From contig WTBY01000025.1 in NCBI GenBank assembly GCA_013138865.1, positions 1 to 64,000 on the forward strand: a DNA stretch of 64,000 bases. The letters run 5' to 3'. Every line of letters begins with the position of its first letter. The first letter of the stretch is position 1. Positions 2,768-33,532 of the stretch are shown piece after piece. This stretch comes from Helicobacteraceae bacterium (lineage in GTDB: Bacteria; Campylobacterota; Campylobacteria; Campylobacterales; Sulfurimonadaceae). Made by a program: the position numbers and the translations under genes. Under the pieces are notes generated by a model. It saw nothing but the letters and a program-made list of their open reading frames with translations, was not told the DNA's origin and did not search any database.

Positions 2768-5158
2768 ATGAAAATCATTACCCTTTTACTTTTAGCTACT
2801 ATAGCTTTTGCTGAGCCTAAAAATAGCTGTATAGAGTGTCATAAAGGGATTGAAGATATTAGAGATAAAGACTCTGGTATGATGAAAGCAATTTACGATA
2901 TGGCTGAAATGGCTGGCGTAAAGGGTAATGATTGTGTTGTTTGTCATGGTGGTAATCCATCAGCTTCTAAAAAAGATTTAGCACACTCTTCGTCGCTTAA
3001 ATTCTTTTTAGAGAATGAAGGTCCTAAAGAGTTCTATCCATCCCCAAGTTCACCTTGGATCAATGAAAACAGTTGTGGTGTATGTCACCCAGAACAAGTT
3101 GGTGCACAACACAACTCGCTTATGCAGACAGAGCAGGGAAAAATTCAAGGAGCACTTTGGAGTTTTGGTGCTATGAATGGTTACAAACATGATATAGGTA
3201 CTTATGACACAAATAACTCTACTGATCCTCATACAAGGTTAGGAACACAGAAATATAGATCATATATGAATAAGCTATCAGAGTTAGAGCCAAATGTATT
3301 TCCTAAACAGATGCGTCAACTTCCCCAAGCTCCAACAGCTGAAGAGGTTGAAAAAGATCCTACACTTGCAGTTTACACTTACTTGCGTCAAGATTGTCTA
3401 CGTTGTCATACTGGTTCAAAAGGTCGTAAAGCATTTGGTGACTATAGAGGAGTAGGTTGTGCTTCTTGTCATATACCTTATTCAAACTCTGGACTATATG
3501 AAGGTGCTGATAAGTCAATAGATAAAAAAGAAGCAGGTCACCTGCTTGTGCACTCTATACAGAGTTCAAGAAAAGCTAAAGTAAAAGTTGGCGACGTTGA
3601 ATACTCGGGTATTCCAGTTGAGACATGTTCAACTTGTCACAATCGTGGAAAAAGAATTGGTGTTTCATACCAAGGTCTAATGGAGACAGAATATAACGCT
3701 CCATATGATGAAAAAGGTAATGCACAAAAGAAGCTCCATACAAAAAGATACCTTCATATGAAAGAGGACATTCACTACTCTAAGGGTATGTTATGTCAAG
3801 ACTGTCATACTTCAAATGATATGCATGGAGATGGTTTTTTAGGTGGAACGACACTAGCCGCAGTTGAGATCGAGTGTCAAGACTGTCATGGAACAACTTC
3901 TAAATATCCATGGGAATTACCATTAGGCTATTCTGATGAATTTAACACAACTGCAAAAACTGGTAAGCCTCGTGGTGTCGCCCAAGATGTTGCAAAGTAT
4001 CTTAAAAAAGGTCATGTGCCAGAAAAAAAAGATGGCTATTTATTAACAGCTCGTGGAAATCCACTTCATAAAGCAGTTCGCAAAGGTGACAAAATTATTA
4101 TGCACCTAGCGAGTGGAAAAAATATAACTCTAACTCCTCTTAAAAAGCTTAAAGAAGAAAAGAAGATCTCTAAAAAAGGTCTGATCGCAATGGATCAAAT
4201 TAGCGCTCATACTGATAAGTTAGAGTGTTATACTTGTCATGCAACTTGGGCACCGCAATGTTATGGTTGTCATGTTAAAATTGACTACTCTAAAGGTCAA
4301 CAGAATGTTGACTACCTAAAAGCTTCTCATGATCACGATATACATGGTGCTACTGGCGATATGAAAAAAGACTTACGTGAGTATTTAGTAGATGGAAAAG
4401 TAACCGAAACTAGATCATTCCTTCGTTGGGAAGATCCAGCTCTTTCGCAAAATGGTGAAGGACGTGTTTCACCTACTGTTCCAGGGTGTCAAACTACGAT
4501 CACAGTTATAGGAAAAGATGGAAATGCACTTCTGCAAAACCATATTTTTAAAATACCAAATGTTGAAGGTGCAGGTGAAGAGGGACAGTTGGCTATTGAT
4601 ATGTCACCTATTCAGCCACACACTATTCAAAAAGAGGCTCGAGAGTGTGAAAGCTGTCACACTAACCCTAAAGCTTTAGGTTATGGTATTGGTAATAACA
4701 AACTTATGGCTGATCCTTCTAAACCAACTATTATAGACCTTATGAGTGCAGATGGTAAGCCAATACCTAAAATTTATAACACTCAAATTCAAGCTATACC
4801 AAACTTGAAAATGGAGTACTCTAAGTTTGTAGATGAGAATGGAACACAACGCCAAACAGTAGGACATCACTGGAAACTTTCACAACCACTTACTAACCTA
4901 CAGCGATCTATTATTGATCGTGAAGGTGTATGTATCTCTTGTCATCAAAGTATACCTCGTGGTGACATAGCTATGAGTCTTATCTCTTTTATGGCAGAAA
5001 AAAGTGGAATAGTGATAGATAATAATTTTCATAAATCACTTCTTCATAGACTTCTTTTAGAGTCTGCATGGTTAGAGGTTTTAGGCGGAGTTTTTGTAGG
5101 ATTATTTATTCTGTATAAAATTTTACAAAGAAGAAAAGATAAAAAAAGATGGAAATAG
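2768..5158 (+). CDS. Twelve-heme membrane-anchored c-type cytochrome
   Basis: A 796-residue multiheme cytochrome. I count twelve CXXCH heme-attachment motifs, from CIECH near residue 21 to CISCH near residue 730. A signal peptide (MKIITLLLLATIAFA) and one C-terminal helix (about residues 765-783) followed by RRKDKKRWK indicate a periplasmic body anchored in the inner membrane with a short basic cytoplasmic tail. It is probably an electron-transfer protein or reductase using quinol electrons; the substrate cannot be read from sequence. The gene runs without a gap into mqnC (menaquinone synthesis), which fits a respiratory role. A related multiheme reductase subunit is possible. Confidence 0.8.
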   Translation: MKIITLLLLATIAFAEPKNSCIECHKGIEDIRDKDSGMMKAIYDMAEMAGVKGNDCVVCHGGNPSASKKDLAHSSSLKFFLENEGPKEFYPSPSSPWINENSCGVCHPEQVGAQHNSLMQTEQGKIQGALWSFGAMNGYKHDIGTYDTNNSTDPHTRLGTQKYRSYMNKLSELEPNVFPKQMRQLPQAPTAEEVEKDPTLAVYTYLRQDCLRCHTGSKGRKAFGDYRGVGCASCHIPYSNSGLYEGADKSIDKKEAGHLLVHSIQSSRKAKVKVGDVEYSGIPVETCSTCHNRGKRIGVSYQGLMETEYNAPYDEKGNAQKKLHTKRYLHMKEDIHYSKGMLCQDCHTSNDMHGDGFLGGTTLAAVEIECQDCHGTTSKYPWELPLGYSDEFNTTAKTGKPRGVAQDVAKYLKKGHVPEKKDGYLLTARGNPLHKAVRKGDKIIMHLASGKNITLTPLKKLKEEKKISKKGLIAMDQISAHTDKLECYTCHATWAPQCYGCHVKIDYSKGQQNVDYLKASHDHDIHGATGDMKKDLREYLVDGKVTETRSFLRWEDPALSQNGEGRVSPTVPGCQTTITVIGKDGNALLQNHIFKIPNVEGAGEEGQLAIDMSPIQPHTIQKEARECESCHTNPKALGYGIGNNKLMADPSKPTIIDLMSADGKPIPKIYNTQIQAIPNLKMEYSKFVDENGTQRQTVGHHWKLSQPLTNLQRSIIDREGVCISCHQSIPRGDIAMSLISFMAEKSGIVIDNNFHKSLLHRLLLESAWLEVLGGVFVGLFILYKILQRRKDKKRWK

Positions 5159-11520: not shown

Positions 11521-14500
11521 TTATATTTTAAATGCTACAAAGGTAACATCATCATTTCTATCCCAATCACCTTGATACTGAGCAAGTTTATTTAAAAATA
11601 TATCTTCTTGCTTCGACATTATTTCTGTGTAGTGTTCTTTAAGGATGTTTGAAAACTTTTTCTTACCAAAAGGGAAGCCCTTTTCTCCACCATTTTGATC
11701 TAAGTATCCATCAGTAGTGAGGTAAAACTGCATTCCCTCTTTTACATCTATACTATGTTCTTTATACTCATAGTCCATAGTACATTTTTTATAACCAACA
11801 GAGTACCTATTGCCCTTGATTATTTTTAGTTCATCATTTTCCACATAAAAAAGTGGTGTTTCAGCTCCTGCAAACTTTATAATTTTATCTTTTTTATTAT
11901 AGTAAATTATTCCTCCATCAAATCCTGCATTAGAGATGCTATCTGATGTTTCTTGCTTAAGAAGCTGTTTCATATTTCTGTTAAAAATACTAAGAATTTT
12001 TGCTGGACTTACGACTTCATCGCTATTGTTTATTTGTGCAGTAATTTGTCTTTCTATTGCTTTAACAAGCATTGTTACAAATGCGCCCGGAACTCCATGT
12101 CCTGTACAGTCTATAACCATAAGTAAACACTCTTCTTCTCTTAACTCTTCAAAAAGATAAACATCCCCACCTACCGTATCTTTTGGTTGCCATACAGTAA
12201 AATAGTCTTGAAAATAATTTCTAAACAATGTATTATCAGGGATAAGAGCACTTTGAATTAATGAAGCATACTCTATAGAGTCTCTTGTATGTTTATTTAT
12301 CTCTTCTATCTCAAGTTTTGCGTTTTCCATTTCAGTTATATTTGTAAATACAGCTGATTTTAAACCTTCATTTCCTGGAAGTTTTGCAGCAGTAACAGAA
12401 AAAATGAAATCAACACTACCCATACTAATCATTACTTTATGATTGTTATCAAAAGAACGAGAGATAGCATAATCTATCCATGTTTCCCTTCCCATCGTAA
12501 TTTGCAGGTAGCCCTCTGGTGCATTAGTATTAAATGTATCACATACACATTTAGCATCATAGGTTTGGATAAATTCTTCTACAGTATCAACTGCATAAAA
12601 ATCAAAAAATGTTTCATTTGCCGTGAGTAAAGTTTCCCCATCTGTGGTAATGATAAGTTGCTCTTGTGAGTCTAAAAGAGTTTTATTAAATTTTCTCTCT
12701 TTTTCTATCTCTTTTGTTCTCTCTTCAATTTTCACTTCAAGATTAGCAGTTAAATCTTCCACCTCTTTTTGCGCTGTAATATCATGACGAATCGCACTGT
12801 AACCAATAGCTATGCCATCTTTATCAAAATCAGGAGAAATTATTGCATCAACCCAATAAAAACCACCATTCTTTTTAAGGTTTTTAACTTCACCTCTCCA
12901 AACTTTACCTGATTTGATAGTTTTCCATAAATCTTCAAACGCTTCTTTTGGCATATCTGGATGTTTTACAATATTATGAGGTTTTCCCACGAGATCTTCT
13001 CGTGAATGTTCACATATATCTACAAACGCATCACTAACATAGGTTATCTTTCCTCGTAAATCAGTCTTACTCGCAATAATATTTTTATCAAAATCTTCTA
13101 GTAGGGAACTTATCTCTTTTGTTTTATCTTTAACCATAAGATTTAGTTTTCTATTATTCCATAAAATAAAAAGAAATATCATCAAAACAACAATTCCGAT
13201 CTGTCCTACAAGAACCCAATCTGTTTTACTTTGTACTTTAATATTGACAGTTTTATTATAAATATGATTGAGTTCTTGTTCCGATATGCTATCAAGAGAT
13301 TTATTTATAATTGAGAGTAGCTCTTTAGGCAAAGTATTTTGAACAGCCATTTTAAATTCAAAAAAAGTATCTATGCTTGTAGCAATTTTTGTTTTATCAA
13401 AATCTTTTATTTGAATATAATATTTACCTGTTGATTTATTGACAGCGAACATATCAATTTTACCATTAGTAACTTTCTCAAAACCTTCCCGTACAGAAGA
13501 TAATTCTACAAAGTTAAAGTTAGGATATTTTTTCAATAATTTCTTATGCATAGCTCTCCCTGCAACTATACCTATACTCTTTTCTTCTAAATCAAACTTT
13601 ACATTTTCATAAATATTTTTATCATCTATATGCGTTATAAATACAACTGGAACTTTAAATAATGTTCTATTGCTAAAGTCTAAATATTCTTTTCGTTTTT
13701 CATTTTCAATGACAAAACTAAATATATCAGCTTTTTTATCTTTCATCAATTGTGTTGATTTTTTCCAACTCTTAGTTGTAATTGCTTCAAATTTTAAAGA
13801 GCTTTTTTTAGATATTAGATTCATTATCTCTGCTGTTGTACCACTATGAACACCTAATCCATTTGTATATTCAAATGGTTCTCTATTTGGGTCATACACA
13901 TATTTTATAACTTGATTTTTTTCTAACCACGCTTCTTCTTCTTTTGAAAGATTAATTTTGTTATTATCTTCTTCAAACCACTTATTTAAAATAGCATTAA
14001 TTTGGGCTTGAGTAATATCATCAAGAGCTTTATTTACTATTTGAGTTAAAATAATTTGTTCTTTATTGATTCCTATATGCAAAGCGTTTTGATTATATAT
14101 AATCGGTAAAACCGCTTTTATACCTGTTTGCATTGTTGAAGCCAAATAAAACTTGACAACAGCATAGGCATCAATATAAACATCTGCTTTATTTAAAATA
14201 ACAGCATCAACTCCCTCTTGAAGTGATTTAACTTTATGAAACTGCATCTTCGGATATTTCTTTTTCAAACTTTCTAATGTGGCATAACCATCAATAACTG
14301 CTACTTTTTTAAATTCTAACTCATCTAAAGACTCAATTGCTTTGTCATCTGTACGCATAAAGACATAATCTTTTACTTTAAAATAAGGTTTTGTATAAGC
14401 AGTAAAGGCTTCACGCTCTTCACTTTTATACATGGCAGGCAAAATATCAAGTTTCCCAATTTTAAAATCTTCTAATAGCTCTTTCCATGTTTGACCAACT

Positions 14501-16224
14501 TTATATTCAAGTTTTAAGCCTGTCTTTTGTGCAACTAAATCAAGAATATCTTTAGAAATACCTTGATATTTTCCATTGTTTCCTACAAAATCAAAAGGTT
14601 TCCAGTCCAGTTCTCCACCAACTAAAACGGTATTGTTTTGTATCCATTCTTTCTCTTTTTTTGTAAGAGGTACTTTTTTTATTTGCTCTTCTTCTTTTTC
14701 AGAGTTAACCCATTTACTTGCAAGTTTGAAAAAAACATCTTCTGGTAATTGCTCCATTGCTTTTTTTAATATAGTGTGTAGTTCTGGCCAATCTTTTCTT
14801 ATAGCGATTTTAATGTAATCTGCTTTTTCCATACTTGGAAAAGTAGGATCGCCTGCAAGTTTTAAATCTGTAAAATTGTATTTCTTCAAGAGGTATGATA
14901 CGACTGAGCTATTTTCTAAGAGTGCATCAACTTCTCCATAGGAGAGCTTTTTCAAACCTTCAACAGCATCATCAACGAGAACCATTTTTATTTGAGGGTA
15001 AGATTCAGAAATGACTTTTTCCTCTTCATACCCTCTAATAATTGCTACTTTTTTTCCAAATAAATCTTTATAGTCTTTTAAAAAAGGGGCATCTTTTTTT
15101 ATGACAATTGATTCAAACATAGTTAAGTAGGATTGGGTAAATAAAGCAAATTCTTTTCGTTCTTTGTTTTCCTCCAAAGCTGTCATAATATCAAGCTTTT
15201 TTTCTTTAAATTGTCCTACAAGGTCATCCCATGAGTTATCTTGGATAAATTCAAGTTTTAAACCTGCAAGACTTGCCAAAGCTCTTAGATAGTCCATACT
15301 AAAACCTTTGGCTTTGCCATTTTCATAAAAATCAAATGGAGGCCATTCTTTATCATTTGCTACTTTTATAATAGGATGCGCAGTAAGCCAATCTTTTTCC
15401 TTTTGCGTTAAATCAAGCTGACTATATTGTTTATTTTTCCCCGAAGTCCATTTATCTTCAATAGCTTTTCTTTCTTCAAAGCTTATACTCTCAATAGCTT
15501 TTTGTATTGCAGAATGAAGATATTTTTTATCTTTAATGATACCTACATGTAATGAGATGTCATTTTGTTGTTTCCTGTCTGGATCAAGATACTCCACAAG
15601 TTCTATATTTGTAATTTGGTTCTCTTTTGCATAATGTAGAAAAAGAAGAGGATTTCCAATAATGGCATCAAGTTTTTTTGTTGCTAGTGCTTGTGTCAGT
15701 TTTGAGTTATTTTTCAATTCAATGAGAGTAATATTTGGTAATAGTGCTTTTATGATAGGGATACTTCCATCTGATTCTTGAACACCAATCTTTAGATTGA
15801 TTAAATCTTTTACAGAGGAAATAGTATTGTCTTCTGCTCGTGTGAATACTCCTAGTTTCCCTTTGTGATAAGGTGTAGTAAAATTTGTAAACTCTTTTCG
15901 TTTTTCATTTTTATACAAAGCTGGTAAAACATCAATTTGTTCTTCTTTAAACATTTGTAATAATTGGGGCCAAGTAAACCCATGAATAAATTCAATATTA
16001 AGATCTAATTTATTTGCAATGAGTTTAATATAATCAATACTTAAACCTCTAGGCTTTCCAAATTCATTATAATCAAAGGGAGGCCAATCCATCTCATTTG
16101 CAACTTTTATTGTTGGGTTAGCTTTTAGCCATGTAGTTTCTTTTACACTCAGCGCTAATGAATTATCTTGAGTATTGGCAAACAGAAGGGTACTTAGAAG
16201 TAAAATATAAATTAATTTTTGCAT
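11521..16224 (-). CDS. Membrane PP2C/SpoIIE phosphatase with four periplasmic solute-binding domains and PAS
   Basis: A 1567-residue receptor phosphatase. After a signal peptide (1-17) come four tandem SBP_bac_3-type modules starting near residues 38, 291, 533 and 773, each opening with a version of IKVANDxEWPPFDF and followed by DILPALYKNEKRKEF-like text. One transmembrane helix (about 1000-1022) leads to a PAS domain (about 1046-1155), a coiled coil, a PAS-like segment (about 1185-1300) and a SpoIIE/PP2C phosphatase (about 1330-1567) with DTVGGDVYLF, IDCTGHGVPGAF and a final NDDVTFV. Likely role: dephosphorylating a partner protein, plausibly the DUF1987 protein, according to periplasmic ligands. 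Its ATG overlaps the porin stop by one base (TAATG). Confidence 0.85.
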   Translation of the reverse strand: MQKLIYILLLSTLLFANTQDNSLALSVKETTWLKANPTIKVANEMDWPPFDYNEFGKPRGLSIDYIKLIANKLDLNIEFIHGFTWPQLLQMFKEEQIDVLPALYKNEKRKEFTNFTTPYHKGKLGVFTRAEDNTISSVKDLINLKIGVQESDGSIPIIKALLPNITLIELKNNSKLTQALATKKLDAIIGNPLLFLHYAKENQITNIELVEYLDPDRKQQNDISLHVGIIKDKKYLHSAIQKAIESISFEERKAIEDKWTSGKNKQYSQLDLTQKEKDWLTAHPIIKVANDKEWPPFDFYENGKAKGFSMDYLRALASLAGLKLEFIQDNSWDDLVGQFKEKKLDIMTALEENKERKEFALFTQSYLTMFESIVIKKDAPFLKDYKDLFGKKVAIIRGYEEEKVISESYPQIKMVLVDDAVEGLKKLSYGEVDALLENSSVVSYLLKKYNFTDLKLAGDPTFPSMEKADYIKIAIRKDWPELHTILKKAMEQLPEDVFFKLASKWVNSEKEEEQIKKVPLTKKEKEWIQNNTVLVGGELDWKPFDFVGNNGKYQGISKDILDLVAQKTGLKLEYKVGQTWKELLEDFKIGKLDILPAMYKSEEREAFTAYTKPYFKVKDYVFMRTDDKAIESLDELEFKKVAVIDGYATLESLKKKYPKMQFHKVKSLQEGVDAVILNKADVYIDAYAVVKFYLASTMQTGIKAVLPIIYNQNALHIGINKEQIILTQIVNKALDDITQAQINAILNKWFEEDNNKINLSKEEEAWLEKNQVIKYVYDPNREPFEYTNGLGVHSGTTAEIMNLISKKSSLKFEAITTKSWKKSTQLMKDKKADIFSFVIENEKRKEYLDFSNRTLFKVPVVFITHIDDKNIYENVKFDLEEKSIGIVAGRAMHKKLLKKYPNFNFVELSSVREGFEKVTNGKIDMFAVNKSTGKYYIQIKDFDKTKIATSIDTFFEFKMAVQNTLPKELLSIINKSLDSISEQELNHIYNKTVNIKVQSKTDWVLVGQIGIVVLMIFLFILWNNRKLNLMVKDKTKEISSLLEDFDKNIIASKTDLRGKITYVSDAFVDICEHSREDLVGKPHNIVKHPDMPKEAFEDLWKTIKSGKVWRGEVKNLKKNGGFYWVDAIISPDFDKDGIAIGYSAIRHDITAQKEVEDLTANLEVKIEERTKEIEKERKFNKTLLDSQEQLIITTDGETLLTANETFFDFYAVDTVEEFIQTYDAKCVCDTFNTNAPEGYLQITMGRETWIDYAISRSFDNNHKVMISMGSVDFIFSVTAAKLPGNEGLKSAVFTNITEMENAKLEIEEINKHTRDSIEYASLIQSALIPDNTLFRNYFQDYFTVWQPKDTVGGDVYLFEELREEECLLMVIDCTGHGVPGAFVTMLVKAIERQITAQINNSDEVVSPAKILSIFNRNMKQLLKQETSDSISNAGFDGGIIYYNKKDKIIKFAGAETPLFYVENDELKIIKGNRYSVGYKKCTMDYEYKEHSIDVKEGMQFYLTTDGYLDQNGGEKGFPFGKKKFSNILKEHYTEIMSKQEDIFLNKLAQYQGDWDRNDDVTFVAFKI

Positions 16225-29465: not shown

Positions 29466-32400
29466 TTACTGTAAAAGTTTTAAAACATTCTCTTGTGTAG
29501 TATTTGCTTGACTCATCGCAAACATTCCACTTTGAGCTAATATGTTATGTTTTGAAAAGTTAGCGGACTCACTTGCAAAGTCAACATCTCTTATAGTTGA
29601 CTCAGCATCTTTTGCATTTACCTCTGTTGTAGAGATATTATTTACTATACTTTTAAGTTGATTTTGAGCGCTACCAACATCTGCACGAACTGCCAACAAA
29701 TCTTTAAGTGCCGAGTCTAGTATTAAAATACTATCTTGACGAGTTTTATTAGAAGTAGTTAAATCTATATCAGACAAATTTTTAGTTGTACGAGTAAAGT
29801 TATCATTTTCACGCATTCCAATTAAATGTAAGTTAGTTCCACTTACATTAACATCAGCAAAATTAGAGCTAGACAACTCAAACTCTCCAACATTAATATA
29901 ACCAGCATTGTCATCAAATTCCCAATCAGCAGTGATCGTATCTGCTGTACTAGCACCTAAGGTTACATAATCTTTTTGCCAAGTAGCACTAACTGTGTCT
30001 TGATTTGATCGGATAGTTGCAAAGTTCTCATTCCATGTTCCCTTAAACTCAAAGTTACCATTAATATTTTCTGCTTGAAAAGCAATTTTTACACTTTCAG
30101 CTATTCCATTTGTTACTATTTGATTATTTACTTGTGTAGGATCAAAAGTAATAGTTCCACCACTAGGTACATTAAGTGTTTGAATACCGCCACTGTAGGC
30201 AAATGTTGAACTTCCACCAGAGTGGTAAAGTCTGATAGAATAATCATCAGCACCAGCCACAGCACCATCAATATTTATACTCATATTGGGAGAAGCACTA
30301 TTAAGTGTGATCATATCAGTAAGTGCGGTGTAATTTATTACTGCTGATAAGTACTCATCTCCACCAGCATTAGCATTATTAACAGCACCACTATGTGCAA
30401 TAGCATCTAAGGCTTGATTAGCTTGAACTTTAATAGTAAATTCACCGCTAGTGCTAGTAACATTTAATGTTGCACTTGCAGGTTTGTTATTTATATACTG
30501 AAATGTTCCAATACCAGCAATTGCAACAGTTTCATTTGCTCCACTAACACTAAAAGAGTCAACTAAATTATTTCCAGAATTGTAAATATTGATAACATCA
30601 TTTTGTTTTGCAGATCTATCTCCCCAGTTAGTAATACTAAAACTTGTATCTTCAGCCCTTGAAGGTATTACTACTAAATCTTGTTCATTATTACTTTCTG
30701 ATGTTGTGTATATATACGTATCTTGATTTATAGCAGATCTATTAATTGAACCATTAGCACTAGCCAAAGTAACTTGGGTATTGTTATTATAATACTTCAT
30801 AGATACATCCATAGAATTTACTACATTTGTAAATTCTATGGTTGAAATATGTGTTGCAGCATTAGTACTATAATGAATTGTTCCATGTTCAGTTTGCCAT
30901 GTTTGATTTGCTTCATCAGCCCAGAAATCTGTAATAGCTGTGCCATCTTCTAATGTAATAAATATTTTTTCTATATTTTCAATTGATGTTGTATCTGTAT
31001 TATGTATAGCAAAAGTAGCATCCTTTTGAGAAGATGGTACATTAAAAATTATCTCTGTGGCATCAACTGTATTATCAATTTGATTTACGATTGTAGATGA
31101 TGTTGAAATATTTGCACTATCAAGATTAACTTTTGCCTTCAATTCAGCAGTAATATTTTCTATAGTGATAGTTGCACTATCTTTGTAACCATTTCCATCA
31201 CTATCTATTTTAGTATATGTAACTGTTCCATATAAGCTATTTACAACTTTATCATTTTCATCACTCTTTATGGTGGCTAGTGCTGTTCCATCTTCATGAT
31301 AAACTATAAACTCATCTACTTCTTGTGTACTATTCCAATCATCAAGAGTAAATGTTACATCTTTAGCTCCGATCGGAATTTCAAGTAGATCGTGTTCTAC
31401 TCCGTCATATTGTAAAGGTGTGTTAGCAGTGAAAGTTTGAGAAGCTAGATTAACACTTCCATCATAAGGAACAAAGGTAGTATTTACTCCTTCTGGAGAT
31501 ATTTTCATATCTATTAGCTGTTGCATATTTCCTGAAAATAGTTTTATAACTCTTCCATCAACACTATCAAGTCTTAATGCTCCAAGTTCATCTATTGAAG
31601 CTTTTACTCCAGTCTCATTTACTCGATCATTTACTGCTGTTATAAATGCCGCATTAGAGTCATTATCTAAAACATCTATTTTACCTAATAATACATCATT
31701 AATACTAAAGTCACTAGGTGTTGTTCCAGCTTCTATAGGCTCATCAGGATCAGCAAATTTATGTATAACCTCATATGAAGCATGAACACCAGTTGTATTA
31801 GCATTTTTATTTACAACATCTGCTAAAGCACCTAGACCTTCACCTATGTTATAGCCTATTTTAACTGACTCAAGCTCATAACTATCAGCTCCGTTTATAT
31901 CATCTAAAGAGAGTTTAATATCCCCAAGTGAAACAGTCGGATCAAGTGGTAACTTTTCACTTCTTATAAAAGCAGTATTACCTAGTTTCACACTACTTGT
32001 TGAGCCTATAGAGAGTTCAACCTTTTGGTTAGAGTCTGCACCTATTTGATAGACGTTGTTCGTATACATGCCACTTAAAAGTGTTTTGCCATTATAACTT
32101 GTAGTATTTGAGATATTATCAAACTCTTCTCTAAGTCTATTAATATCATTTTGTAATATTCTTCTTGAAGCTGATGTTTGCCCATCTTGAGCAGCTTGAA
32201 TAGTTTTAACTCTTATAGAGTTTAAAATATTTACTTGTTCACTCATAGCTTGATCAGCTATTTGCATAACAGAGATACCATCATTTGCATTTTTAATAGA
32301 TTGCGTTAAAACTGCTGACTGCGATCGAAGTGCATCTGCTATGAGAAGACTAGAAGAATCATCTGCAGCAGAAGTAACTCTAATTCCAGAACTAAGCTTT

Positions 32401-32486
32401 GCTAAAGAGTTATCAATAGCTTTATTATTCAAAGTAGAATTAACATTAACATTCATGGCAGTAATATTACTATTAATTTTAAACAT
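29466..32486 (-). CDS. Giant flagellin with an Ig-like repeat insert
   Basis: The 1006 residues have conserved flagellin ends: N-terminal D0/D1 (about 1-160; INSNITAMNVN, LAKLSSGIRVTSAADDSS, NANDGISVMQIADQA) and C-terminal D1/D0 (about 910-1006; RADVGSAQNQL, ESTIRDVDFASES, ending LKLLQ). Most flagellins have 300-580 residues; here an insert of about 700 occupies the surface-exposed middle. It contains repeats of roughly 110-125 residues starting near 362, 474 and 600 (consensus IPxxAxDxTFxIxNW ... DGT ... GTxxY) and a weaker one near 722. The insert should project from the filament. A sigma-54-like site lies just upstream but no ribosome site is seen. Confidence 0.9.
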   Translation of the reverse strand: MFKINSNITAMNVNVNSTLNNKAIDNSLAKLSSGIRVTSAADDSSSLLIADALRSQSAVLTQSIKNANDGISVMQIADQAMSEQVNILNSIRVKTIQAAQDGQTSASRRILQNDINRLREEFDNISNTTSYNGKTLLSGMYTNNVYQIGADSNQKVELSIGSTSSVKLGNTAFIRSEKLPLDPTVSLGDIKLSLDDINGADSYELESVKIGYNIGEGLGALADVVNKNANTTGVHASYEVIHKFADPDEPIEAGTTPSDFSINDVLLGKIDVLDNDSNAAFITAVNDRVNETGVKASIDELGALRLDSVDGRVIKLFSGNMQQLIDMKISPEGVNTTFVPYDGSVNLASQTFTANTPLQYDGVEHDLLEIPIGAKDVTFTLDDWNSTQEVDEFIVYHEDGTALATIKSDENDKVVNSLYGTVTYTKIDSDGNGYKDSATITIENITAELKAKVNLDSANISTSSTIVNQIDNTVDATEIIFNVPSSQKDATFAIHNTDTTSIENIEKIFITLEDGTAITDFWADEANQTWQTEHGTIHYSTNAATHISTIEFTNVVNSMDVSMKYYNNNTQVTLASANGSINRSAINQDTYIYTTSESNNEQDLVVIPSRAEDTSFSITNWGDRSAKQNDVINIYNSGNNLVDSFSVSGANETVAIAGIGTFQYINNKPASATLNVTSTSGEFTIKVQANQALDAIAHSGAVNNANAGGDEYLSAVINYTALTDMITLNSASPNMSINIDGAVAGADDYSIRLYHSGGSSTFAYSGGIQTLNVPSGGTITFDPTQVNNQIVTNGIAESVKIAFQAENINGNFEFKGTWNENFATIRSNQDTVSATWQKDYVTLGASTADTITADWEFDDNAGYINVGEFELSSSNFADVNVSGTNLHLIGMRENDNFTRTTKNLSDIDLTTSNKTRQDSILILDSALKDLLAVRADVGSAQNQLKSIVNNISTTEVNAKDAESTIRDVDFASESANFSKHNILAQSGMFAMSQANTTQENVLKLLQ

Positions 32487-32497
32487 AATGTAAAATT

Positions 32498-32513
32498 AGC
32501 AAAATCTATTCCT
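32498..32513 (-). promoter_or_regulatory. Possible sigma-54 site before the giant flagellin
   Basis: On the minus strand AGGAATAGATTTTGCT has GG and GC with the correct -24/-12 spacing. The predicted transcript start would be within a few bases of the start codon, so this site is doubtful or the mRNA is nearly leaderless. Confidence 0.35.
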
Positions 32514-32554
32514 ATTGGAGTATTTCAAATTAGATTAATATTTAGAAGTATAAA

Positions 32555-32571
32555 TGGAACATCTTTTGCTT
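32555..32571 (+). promoter_or_regulatory. Sigma-54 promoter for flgB-flgC-fliE
   Basis: TGGAACATCTTTTGCTT matches the TGGCACN5TTGCW consensus with exact GG-GC spacing, 30 nt before the flgB start. Rod genes of Campylobacter and Helicobacter are classically RpoN-dependent, so regulation by RpoN and FlgR-type activators is expected. Confidence 0.75.
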
Positions 32572-32600
32572 AATTCAGTTAATTATATAAAAGGAAGAAA

Positions 32601-33023
32601 ATGGAAATATCTCGCGCTCATGACTTAATGGCTTCAGCACTAGACTATCGCTCTGCTCGTCAAGATATTATTAGCTCAAATATAGCTAATGCAGATACTC
32701 CATTTTATAAAGCTCGTGATATAAGCTTTAGTGACATGTTAGCAAATCAAAGAGCTGAAACTTTTAGAGACAGATCAAATGAACTTCCAATGGCAAAAAC
32801 TAGTGCCTCTCATTTACGTTCATATGATGAGAAAATAAATGATAAAGCTATAACTTTTTATAGAGATGGACATGCAATGGGAAATGATGGTAATACGGTA
32901 GATATAGATGTAGAGACTACAGAGATGTCTAAAAATAATATTATGTTTAATGCTGTTGTAATGGCTCTTAAAAAAGAGGTTACAGGTTACAAAGATATGC
33001 TTATGAGCGTAAGTAAACCATAA
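32601..33023 (+). CDS. flgB: Flagellar proximal rod protein FlgB
   Basis: The 140-residue FlgB forms part of the rod crossing the periplasm. The N-terminus has ALDYRSARQDIISSNIANADTPFYKARD, the ANxxTPGY-like rod signature, and the C-terminus has VDIDVETTEMSKNNIMFNAVV. It is the first gene of the block flgB-flgC-fliE. AAGGAAG precedes the ATG, and a sigma-54 promoter lies at 32555. Confidence 0.95.
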   Translation: MEISRAHDLMASALDYRSARQDIISSNIANADTPFYKARDISFSDMLANQRAETFRDRSNELPMAKTSASHLRSYDEKINDKAITFYRDGHAMGNDGNTVDIDVETTEMSKNNIMFNAVVMALKKEVTGYKDMLMSVSKP

Positions 33024-33040: not shown

Positions 33041-33532
33041 ATGGCATTTTTAAGTAGTTTTGACATTAGTGGTTATGGTCTTTCAGCTCAAAGAGCTCGC
33101 GTAAATGTAATAAGTTCTAACATTGCTAATGCACAAACAACTAGAACTGAAGAAGGTGGACCTTACCGTCGTCGCGAAGTTGTTTTTCGTGCTGTAGATT
33201 TTGGCAAAGTGTTACAAGATAAGATGCAAAAAAACAGTGATTCTCTTCCTTATAGTGATCCTATTGACGCTGGTGGTTATGGAAAAAAAGTTGATCCTTT
33301 GCTTATGAGTGTTATAGTAGACAAAATTGCTCGTGATGACACTGCACCCAAGATGAAATTTGAGCCAAATCATCCTGATGCTGATGCAAATGGTTATGTT
33401 GCATACCCAAATGTTAATCCTGTTATAGAAATGGCCGATTTAGTAGAAGCAACAAGATCATATCAAGCAAATGTTGCAGCATTCCAAAGTACGAAAGATA
33501 TGGCAACAAAAGCCATTATGCTTTTACAATAA
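33041..33532 (+). CDS. flgC: Flagellar proximal rod protein FlgC
   Basis: The 163-residue FlgC is a rod subunit exported by the flagellar type III apparatus. It shows SSFDISGYGLSAQRARVNVISSNIANAQTTRT, the YRRREVVF segment and the C-terminal VEATRSYQANVAAFQSTKDM helix typical of the family. It follows flgB by 17 nt with TAAGGAAA upstream of the ATG. Confidence 0.95.
   Translation: MAFLSSFDISGYGLSAQRARVNVISSNIANAQTTRTEEGGPYRRREVVFRAVDFGKVLQDKMQKNSDSLPYSDPIDAGGYGKKVDPLLMSVIVDKIARDDTAPKMKFEPNHPDADANGYVAYPNVNPVIEMADLVEATRSYQANVAAFQSTKDMATKAIMLLQ

Follow-up and report, generated by a model that had tools for sequence, protein, structure and literature searches.

A giant flagellin of 1006 amino acids, P0001, is encoded at positions 29466-32486 on the minus strand of the window, which is the whole 64-kb stretch of DNA that was analysed. 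The balance of the evidence leans towards P0001 being a lineage-specific minor flagellin that is made early, together with the rod and hook genes, and that builds or decorates the hook-proximal segment of the filament with a thick acidic outer layer. Giant flagellins have already been described in many bacteria, and since these include repeat-bearing examples (PMC6248924), P0001 is a new member rather than a new kind. It is notable mainly for its repeats, for which no relative has been detected, and for a putative promoter that ties the gene to early flagellum assembly.

The giant flagellin gene and its surroundings

The reading frame of P0001 runs through 1006 codons uninterrupted by stops or frameshifts, on a strand that the original prediction had not given, and its GC content is 0.327, compared with 0.329 for the 64-kb window. 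Flagellin families of both Pfam and NCBIfam match the protein. In Pfam, Flagellin_N is found at residues 4-142 (1e-33; 116.8 bits against a curated cut-off of 26.6) and Flagellin_C at residues 922-1005 (1.6e-23; 83.2 bits against a curated cut-off of 23), so that both end domains exceed the cut-offs for a bacterial flagellin. The original prediction of a flagellin with conserved D0/D1 ends is borne out by these matches and by the intact frame, and the C-terminal KLLQ that it pointed out is indeed the end of the protein. With 1006 amino acids and an enlarged central region, P0001 also falls within the giant flagellins, which are those of more than 1000 amino acids (PMC6248924). A metallopeptidase domain, as present in flagellinolysin (PMC5595980), was looked for in the central region, and no peptidase family was found in the Pfam and NCBIfam scans.

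The rod genes that had been noticed nearby were identified as flgB (32601-33023, plus strand; TIGR01396, 7.9e-34), the divergent neighbour of the giant flagellin gene, and flgC (33041-33532, plus strand; TIGR01395, 1.2e-51). In related genomes, a flagellin gene divergent from flgB within 1.5 kb was present at none of 29 flgB loci, which rules out a shared arrangement. Elsewhere in the window, a 796-aa multihaem cytochrome with an MtrC/MtrF-like domain (2768-5158, plus strand) suggests extracellular electron transfer. In addition, a 1567-aa sensor (11521-16224, minus strand) contains four solute-binding family 3 stretches, a PAS domain and a SpoIIE phosphatase domain.

Domain layout and the inserted block

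Five parts can be distinguished in P0001, all encoded on the minus strand. The N-terminal D0/D1 core (residues 1-172; 31971-32486) is delimited by Flagellin_N, the helices of the structural model and the profile alignment. It is followed by the outward limb of D2/D3 (residues 173-317; 31536-31970), which is homologous to Campylobacter jejuni FlaA and Helicobacter pylori FlaA/FlaB, contains a Flagellin_IN motif at residues 197-238 and is predicted with confidence in the full-length model. The inserted block (residues 318-864; 29895-31535) corresponds to the gap between two FlaA-homologous blocks and to a gap in the profile alignment. After this block come the D2/D3 return strand (residues 865-911; 29754-29894), in which NVGEFELSSSNFADVNVSGTNLHLIGM matches FlaA in the phmmer alignment to 6x80, and the C-terminal D1/D0 core with the stop codon (residues 912-1006; 29466-29753), recognized by Flagellin_C and a helix at residues 913-1005.

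A profile built from 72 mostly Campylobacterota flagellins aligns with residues 1-328 (366 bits) and 833-1006 (144 bits). In the phmmer comparison with C. jejuni FlaA (6x80), residues 2-317 correspond to FlaA 3-310 and residues 912-1006 to FlaA 482-576. The return strand, residues 865-905, corresponds to FlaA 326-366 and contains NVSGTNLHLIGM; this match reaches only 8 bits by itself, and the assignment is supported by its position, which falls in the expected order between the two flanking matched blocks. The insert is thus placed before the return strand, with D0/D1 and the outward limb of D2/D3 retained, and comprises about 547 residues where C. jejuni FlaA has about 15. The earlier figure of about 700 extra residues is therefore too high, also in comparison with the usual paralogues, which P0001 exceeds by about 500 amino acids. 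FlaA residues 367-481, about 115 residues after the return strand, are missing in P0001. The C. jejuni and H. pylori proteins (6x80, 9ygu and 9yh1), which are the best matches in sequence and in the fold of the core, are 508-576 amino acids long and do not have the insert.

In the full-length model, helices at residues 3-32, 44-99, 105-128 and 913-1005 are predicted to form the helical D0/D1 core from both ends of the protein. These conserved ends would be exported and would polymerise into the filament core. Most of residues 327-905 have a pLDDT below 50, and the model says little on the insert beyond the second repeat. The insert is rich in Thr, Asn and Ser, contains no cysteine and has a net charge of about -47 (residues 320-862); in the assembled filament it would form an outward acidic layer.

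Three tandem repeats in the insert, predicted as beta domains

Three related repeats are present in the insert, all on the minus strand: R1 (residues 345-458; 31113-31454), R2 (residues 465-577; 30756-31094) and R3 (residues 582-692; 30411-30743). The local alignment score is 97 for R1/R2 (shuffled maximum 61) and 84 for R1/R3 (shuffled maximum 67), neither of which was reached in 500 shuffles, and 57 for R2/R3, which was reached in 4 of 500. These scores confirm the three repeats of the original prediction and, with them, a flagellin whose outer domain is large and repeated. The motif IPxxAxDxTFxIxNW, by which the repeats had been recognized, is common to all three in a degenerate form, with VPSSQKDATFAIHNT in R2, and it is located at residues 370, 483 and 607 instead of 362, 474 and 600. 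A weaker fourth repeat near residue 722 had been proposed as well. This segment (residues 701-806; 30069-30386, minus strand) scores above chance against R3 only, with 53, which was reached in 3 of 500 shuffles for one of 15 pairs tested, and a profile made from R1-R3 finds exactly three copies in P0001 and misses it. It is thus not supported as a repeat.

AlphaFold2 predicts R1 as a domain of eight strands (pLDDT 75, pTM 0.70) from an alignment of R1-R3 only, and the full-length model, based on a different alignment, shows R2 with the same strand order at moderate confidence. The expectation that the repeat units would be alike in predicted structure is thus supported for R1 and R2 by two separate predictions, compared by strand order. 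The best PDB fold match of the R1 model is a jelly-roll-type domain of the protease CspB (TM 0.59, E 8e-3), while T-cell-receptor Ig (V) domains reach a TM of about 0.48; therefore, R1-R3 are named only beta domains, predicted to be eight-stranded, and Ig membership is left aside. The description of the repeats as Ig-like is unproven: neither of these is a confident fold match for R1, and the best Ig/Big family match of the repeats in Pfam, Big_11, has an E of 0.044, below the cut-off. No match of the repeats exceeded the cut-off in Pfam, PHROGs or PDB sequences, the last giving none at E <0.04, and no confident match to the R1 fold was found in a viral structure library.

Tandem surface-exposed beta domains are common in adhesins. 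In line with this, adhesion was suggested in the original prediction, the repeats turning the filament into an adhesin or ligand-binding surface, and two repeats match Big_11 and the repeat profile matches a bacillolysin domain (E 0.3), all weakly and below threshold. Family scans of P0001 and its repeats matched no adhesin family, binding motif or catalytic domain above the cut-off, and the net charge of the insert is also compatible with a plain layer for solubility or shielding, which makes an adhesive function quite improbable.

No relative of the insert or the repeats was found in 228 genomes of the family, 397 genomes of the phylum, or among the genome contigs, viral contigs, plasmids and phages searched. 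Among 399 genomes of the order none was accepted; a single match (E 4.4e-4) lies in a frame of 166 with three internal stops and was taken as chance. In the collections searched, R1-R3 thus form a domain family without a detectable sequence relative.

Paralogues and origin of the giant flagellin

Five further flagellins are encoded in the same genome: a tandem pair of 504 amino acids each, and proteins of 502, 646 and 498 amino acids. The proposed comparison with the other flagellins of the genome therefore yields five paralogues of normal size (498-646 amino acids) beside the giant, which makes it probable that P0001 is neither the only nor the principal subunit of the filament. In the same family, the listed flagellins have lengths from below 300 to 846 amino acids, and relatives in Desulfobacterota reach 1419. 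Large flagellins of Desulfobacterota (for example 1311, 1254 and 1419 amino acids at L044, L070 and L075) share the type of enlargement and the D0/D1 family with P0001, but their inserts do not match its repeats.

In a tree of D0-D2 and the C-terminus, the giant flagellin is placed with a support of 99/96 in a 12-row set with flagellins of its own genome and family, and its branch (1.4) is the longest of all. From the families to which its relatives in the tree belong, the genome is probably one of Sulfurimonadaceae. A grouping with the Desulfobacterota giants meets a mild rejection when the longer alignment is used (p-AU 0.036) and is not rejected with the shorter D0/D1 alignment (p-AU 0.64), and a horizontal origin from these giants is, on this weak rejection, not favoured. 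The favoured but unproven origin is a lineage-specific divergence from an ordinary flagellin: a paralogue would have diverged strongly, and its D2/D3 outer domain would have gained about 547 residues, among them the three tandem beta-domain copies. P0001 keeps 90 of 105 nearly invariant D0/D1 positions; its 15 departures, mostly conservative changes, are the most in the set and, together with the long branch, could mean relaxed constraint.

Other large flagellins were observed in this survey. A genome of the same family (G003, contig C122, locus L126) encodes tandem large flagellins with open frames of 819 and 813. By their D0/D1, these group with a large flagellin (829) from G278, a genome of a different family, and are adjacent to the Desulfobacterota giants. 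In the same order, a frame of 2470 amino acids (L122:682-8091, minus strand; genome G575, contig C1) has intact Flagellin_N (4e-33) and Flagellin_C (1e-14) domains. Its insert of roughly 2100 residues contains no internal repeats by blastp, its length is far above that of any other flagellin observed, and in the tree it sits on a very long branch.

A putative sigma-54-type promoter and the probable timing of expression

The gap between the giant flagellin gene and flgB (32487-32600) is 114 bp long and contains two GGAAN6TTGC elements, one on each strand, where 1.36 would be expected by chance over the whole 64-kb window. On the minus strand, GGAATAGATTTTGC (32499-32512) is located 12 bp before the ATG of the giant flagellin and a Shine-Dalgarno sequence is absent; on the plus strand, GGAACATCTTTTGC (32556-32569) is located 31 bp before flgB, where a Shine-Dalgarno sequence is present. 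GGAATAGATTTTGC is of the GG-N10-GC type common to hook and rod genes, which places the giant flagellin among the putative sigma-54-type genes. Elements of this kind are also found before the three hook genes, fliK, flgL, flgF/G, flgB and the second of the tandem 504-aa flagellins, while the first 504-aa flagellin and those of 646 and 498 amino acids have sigma-28-like sites instead. In the genome, the GGAANNNNNTTTGCTT form of the motif is counted 11 times and the TTGCTA form 10 times, compared with one occurrence of each in the reversed control.

Since this promoter type is common to rod, hook, FlgL and flaB-like genes, and since sigma-28-like sites precede three or more of the other flagellins, the giant flagellin would most likely be transcribed by sigma-54 and produced early and in modest amounts. 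The shared promoter type, together with the conserved D0/D1 positions, also makes the originally proposed use in a filament plausible. Most sigma-54-type genes here have the element 30-53 bp before the ATG, and most of these have a Shine-Dalgarno sequence; the giant flagellin departs from them in both respects. If the promoter is real, the transcript would have no leader or almost none; this suggests a low output, and the protein may be poorly translated.

A promoter nearly on the start codon and the missing Shine-Dalgarno sequence would also fit a decaying or barely expressed paralogue without a present role, as would the long branch, the number of departures from conserved positions and the lack of an orthologue in relatives. 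Such decay is improbable in view of the uninterrupted frame of 1006 codons, a GC content like that of the window, the 90 of 105 nearly invariant positions that are kept with mostly conservative changes in the rest, and the intact promoter-like element.

Proposed placement in the filament

In C. jejuni, FlaB is produced early with the hook and rod genes, from a sigma-54-type promoter as proposed for P0001; it makes up the initial 250-1000 nm of the filament, and this stretch is stiffer (PMC7332011). H. pylori FlaB is also located near the hook (PMC12880188), and Shewanella putrefaciens has a hook-proximal minor flagellin too (PMC6299084). By analogy with these minor flagellins, the giant subunit would be incorporated hook-proximally in a mixed filament, where its bulky outer layer may widen, stiffen or shield that part. 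Thickening of the filament is an effect shown for other giant flagellins in two species (PMC6248924).

Three FlgE-type hook genes are present in the same genome, encoding proteins of 858 (L159:1633-4206, plus strand), 712 (L159:4634-6769, plus strand) and 871 amino acids (L160:2824-5436, minus strand). The first two are a stand-alone tandem pair, and sigma-54-type elements are found before all three. In the main rival explanation, P0001 would instead build a thick filament of its own, possibly on a dedicated hook, for use in different conditions or a different cell type. The stand-alone pair beside the 871-aa hook gene would suit such a filament, and two marine species have filaments of 30 nm or more in thickness that are built from giant flagellins (PMC6248924). 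However, no flagellin besides the giant is predicted in those two species, which have been studied experimentally, and this differs from the present genome. The genome also has a single strong flgB match and a single FlgK above the cut-off, and the promoter class of the giant is that of the rod and hook genes in general rather than of a distinct cluster. A separate filament is thus unlikely, yet better supported than adhesion or decay, and hook-proximal incorporation remains the preferred reading.

Comparison with known giant flagellins

Giant flagellins occur in several phyla, including the delta/epsilon group (PMC6248924). Those of Bermanella marisrubri, Oleibacter marinus and others resemble P0001 in having more than 1000 amino acids, conserved D0/D1 domains and an enlarged centre, and some have internally duplicated domains (PMC6248924). 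P0001 differs from them in that its three repeats are of a different domain without a detected relative, set in a retained Campylobacterota-type D2/D3, and in that it occurs among five ordinary flagellins. The outer-domain-sheath filaments of Escherichia coli O157:H7 and Achromobacter also have large outer domains that, as in P0001, could layer round the core; sheath formation in these depends on domain dimerisation (PMC8931119), and no sequence relation to P0001 was seen.

A more specific version of the hook-proximal reading combines sigma-54 timing, a leaderless or nearly leaderless mRNA that keeps the amount low, and an outer layer of orphan tandem beta domains into a short thick collar near the hook of an otherwise ordinary filament; this combination is possible but doubtful. 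The advantage of flagellins of double size is unclear according to the authors who described the giant flagellins (PMC6248924). Here, one genome holds a giant and five ordinary flagellins, and the promoter class predicts the place of the giant in the filament, so that the role of flagellin size could be tested inside one filament.
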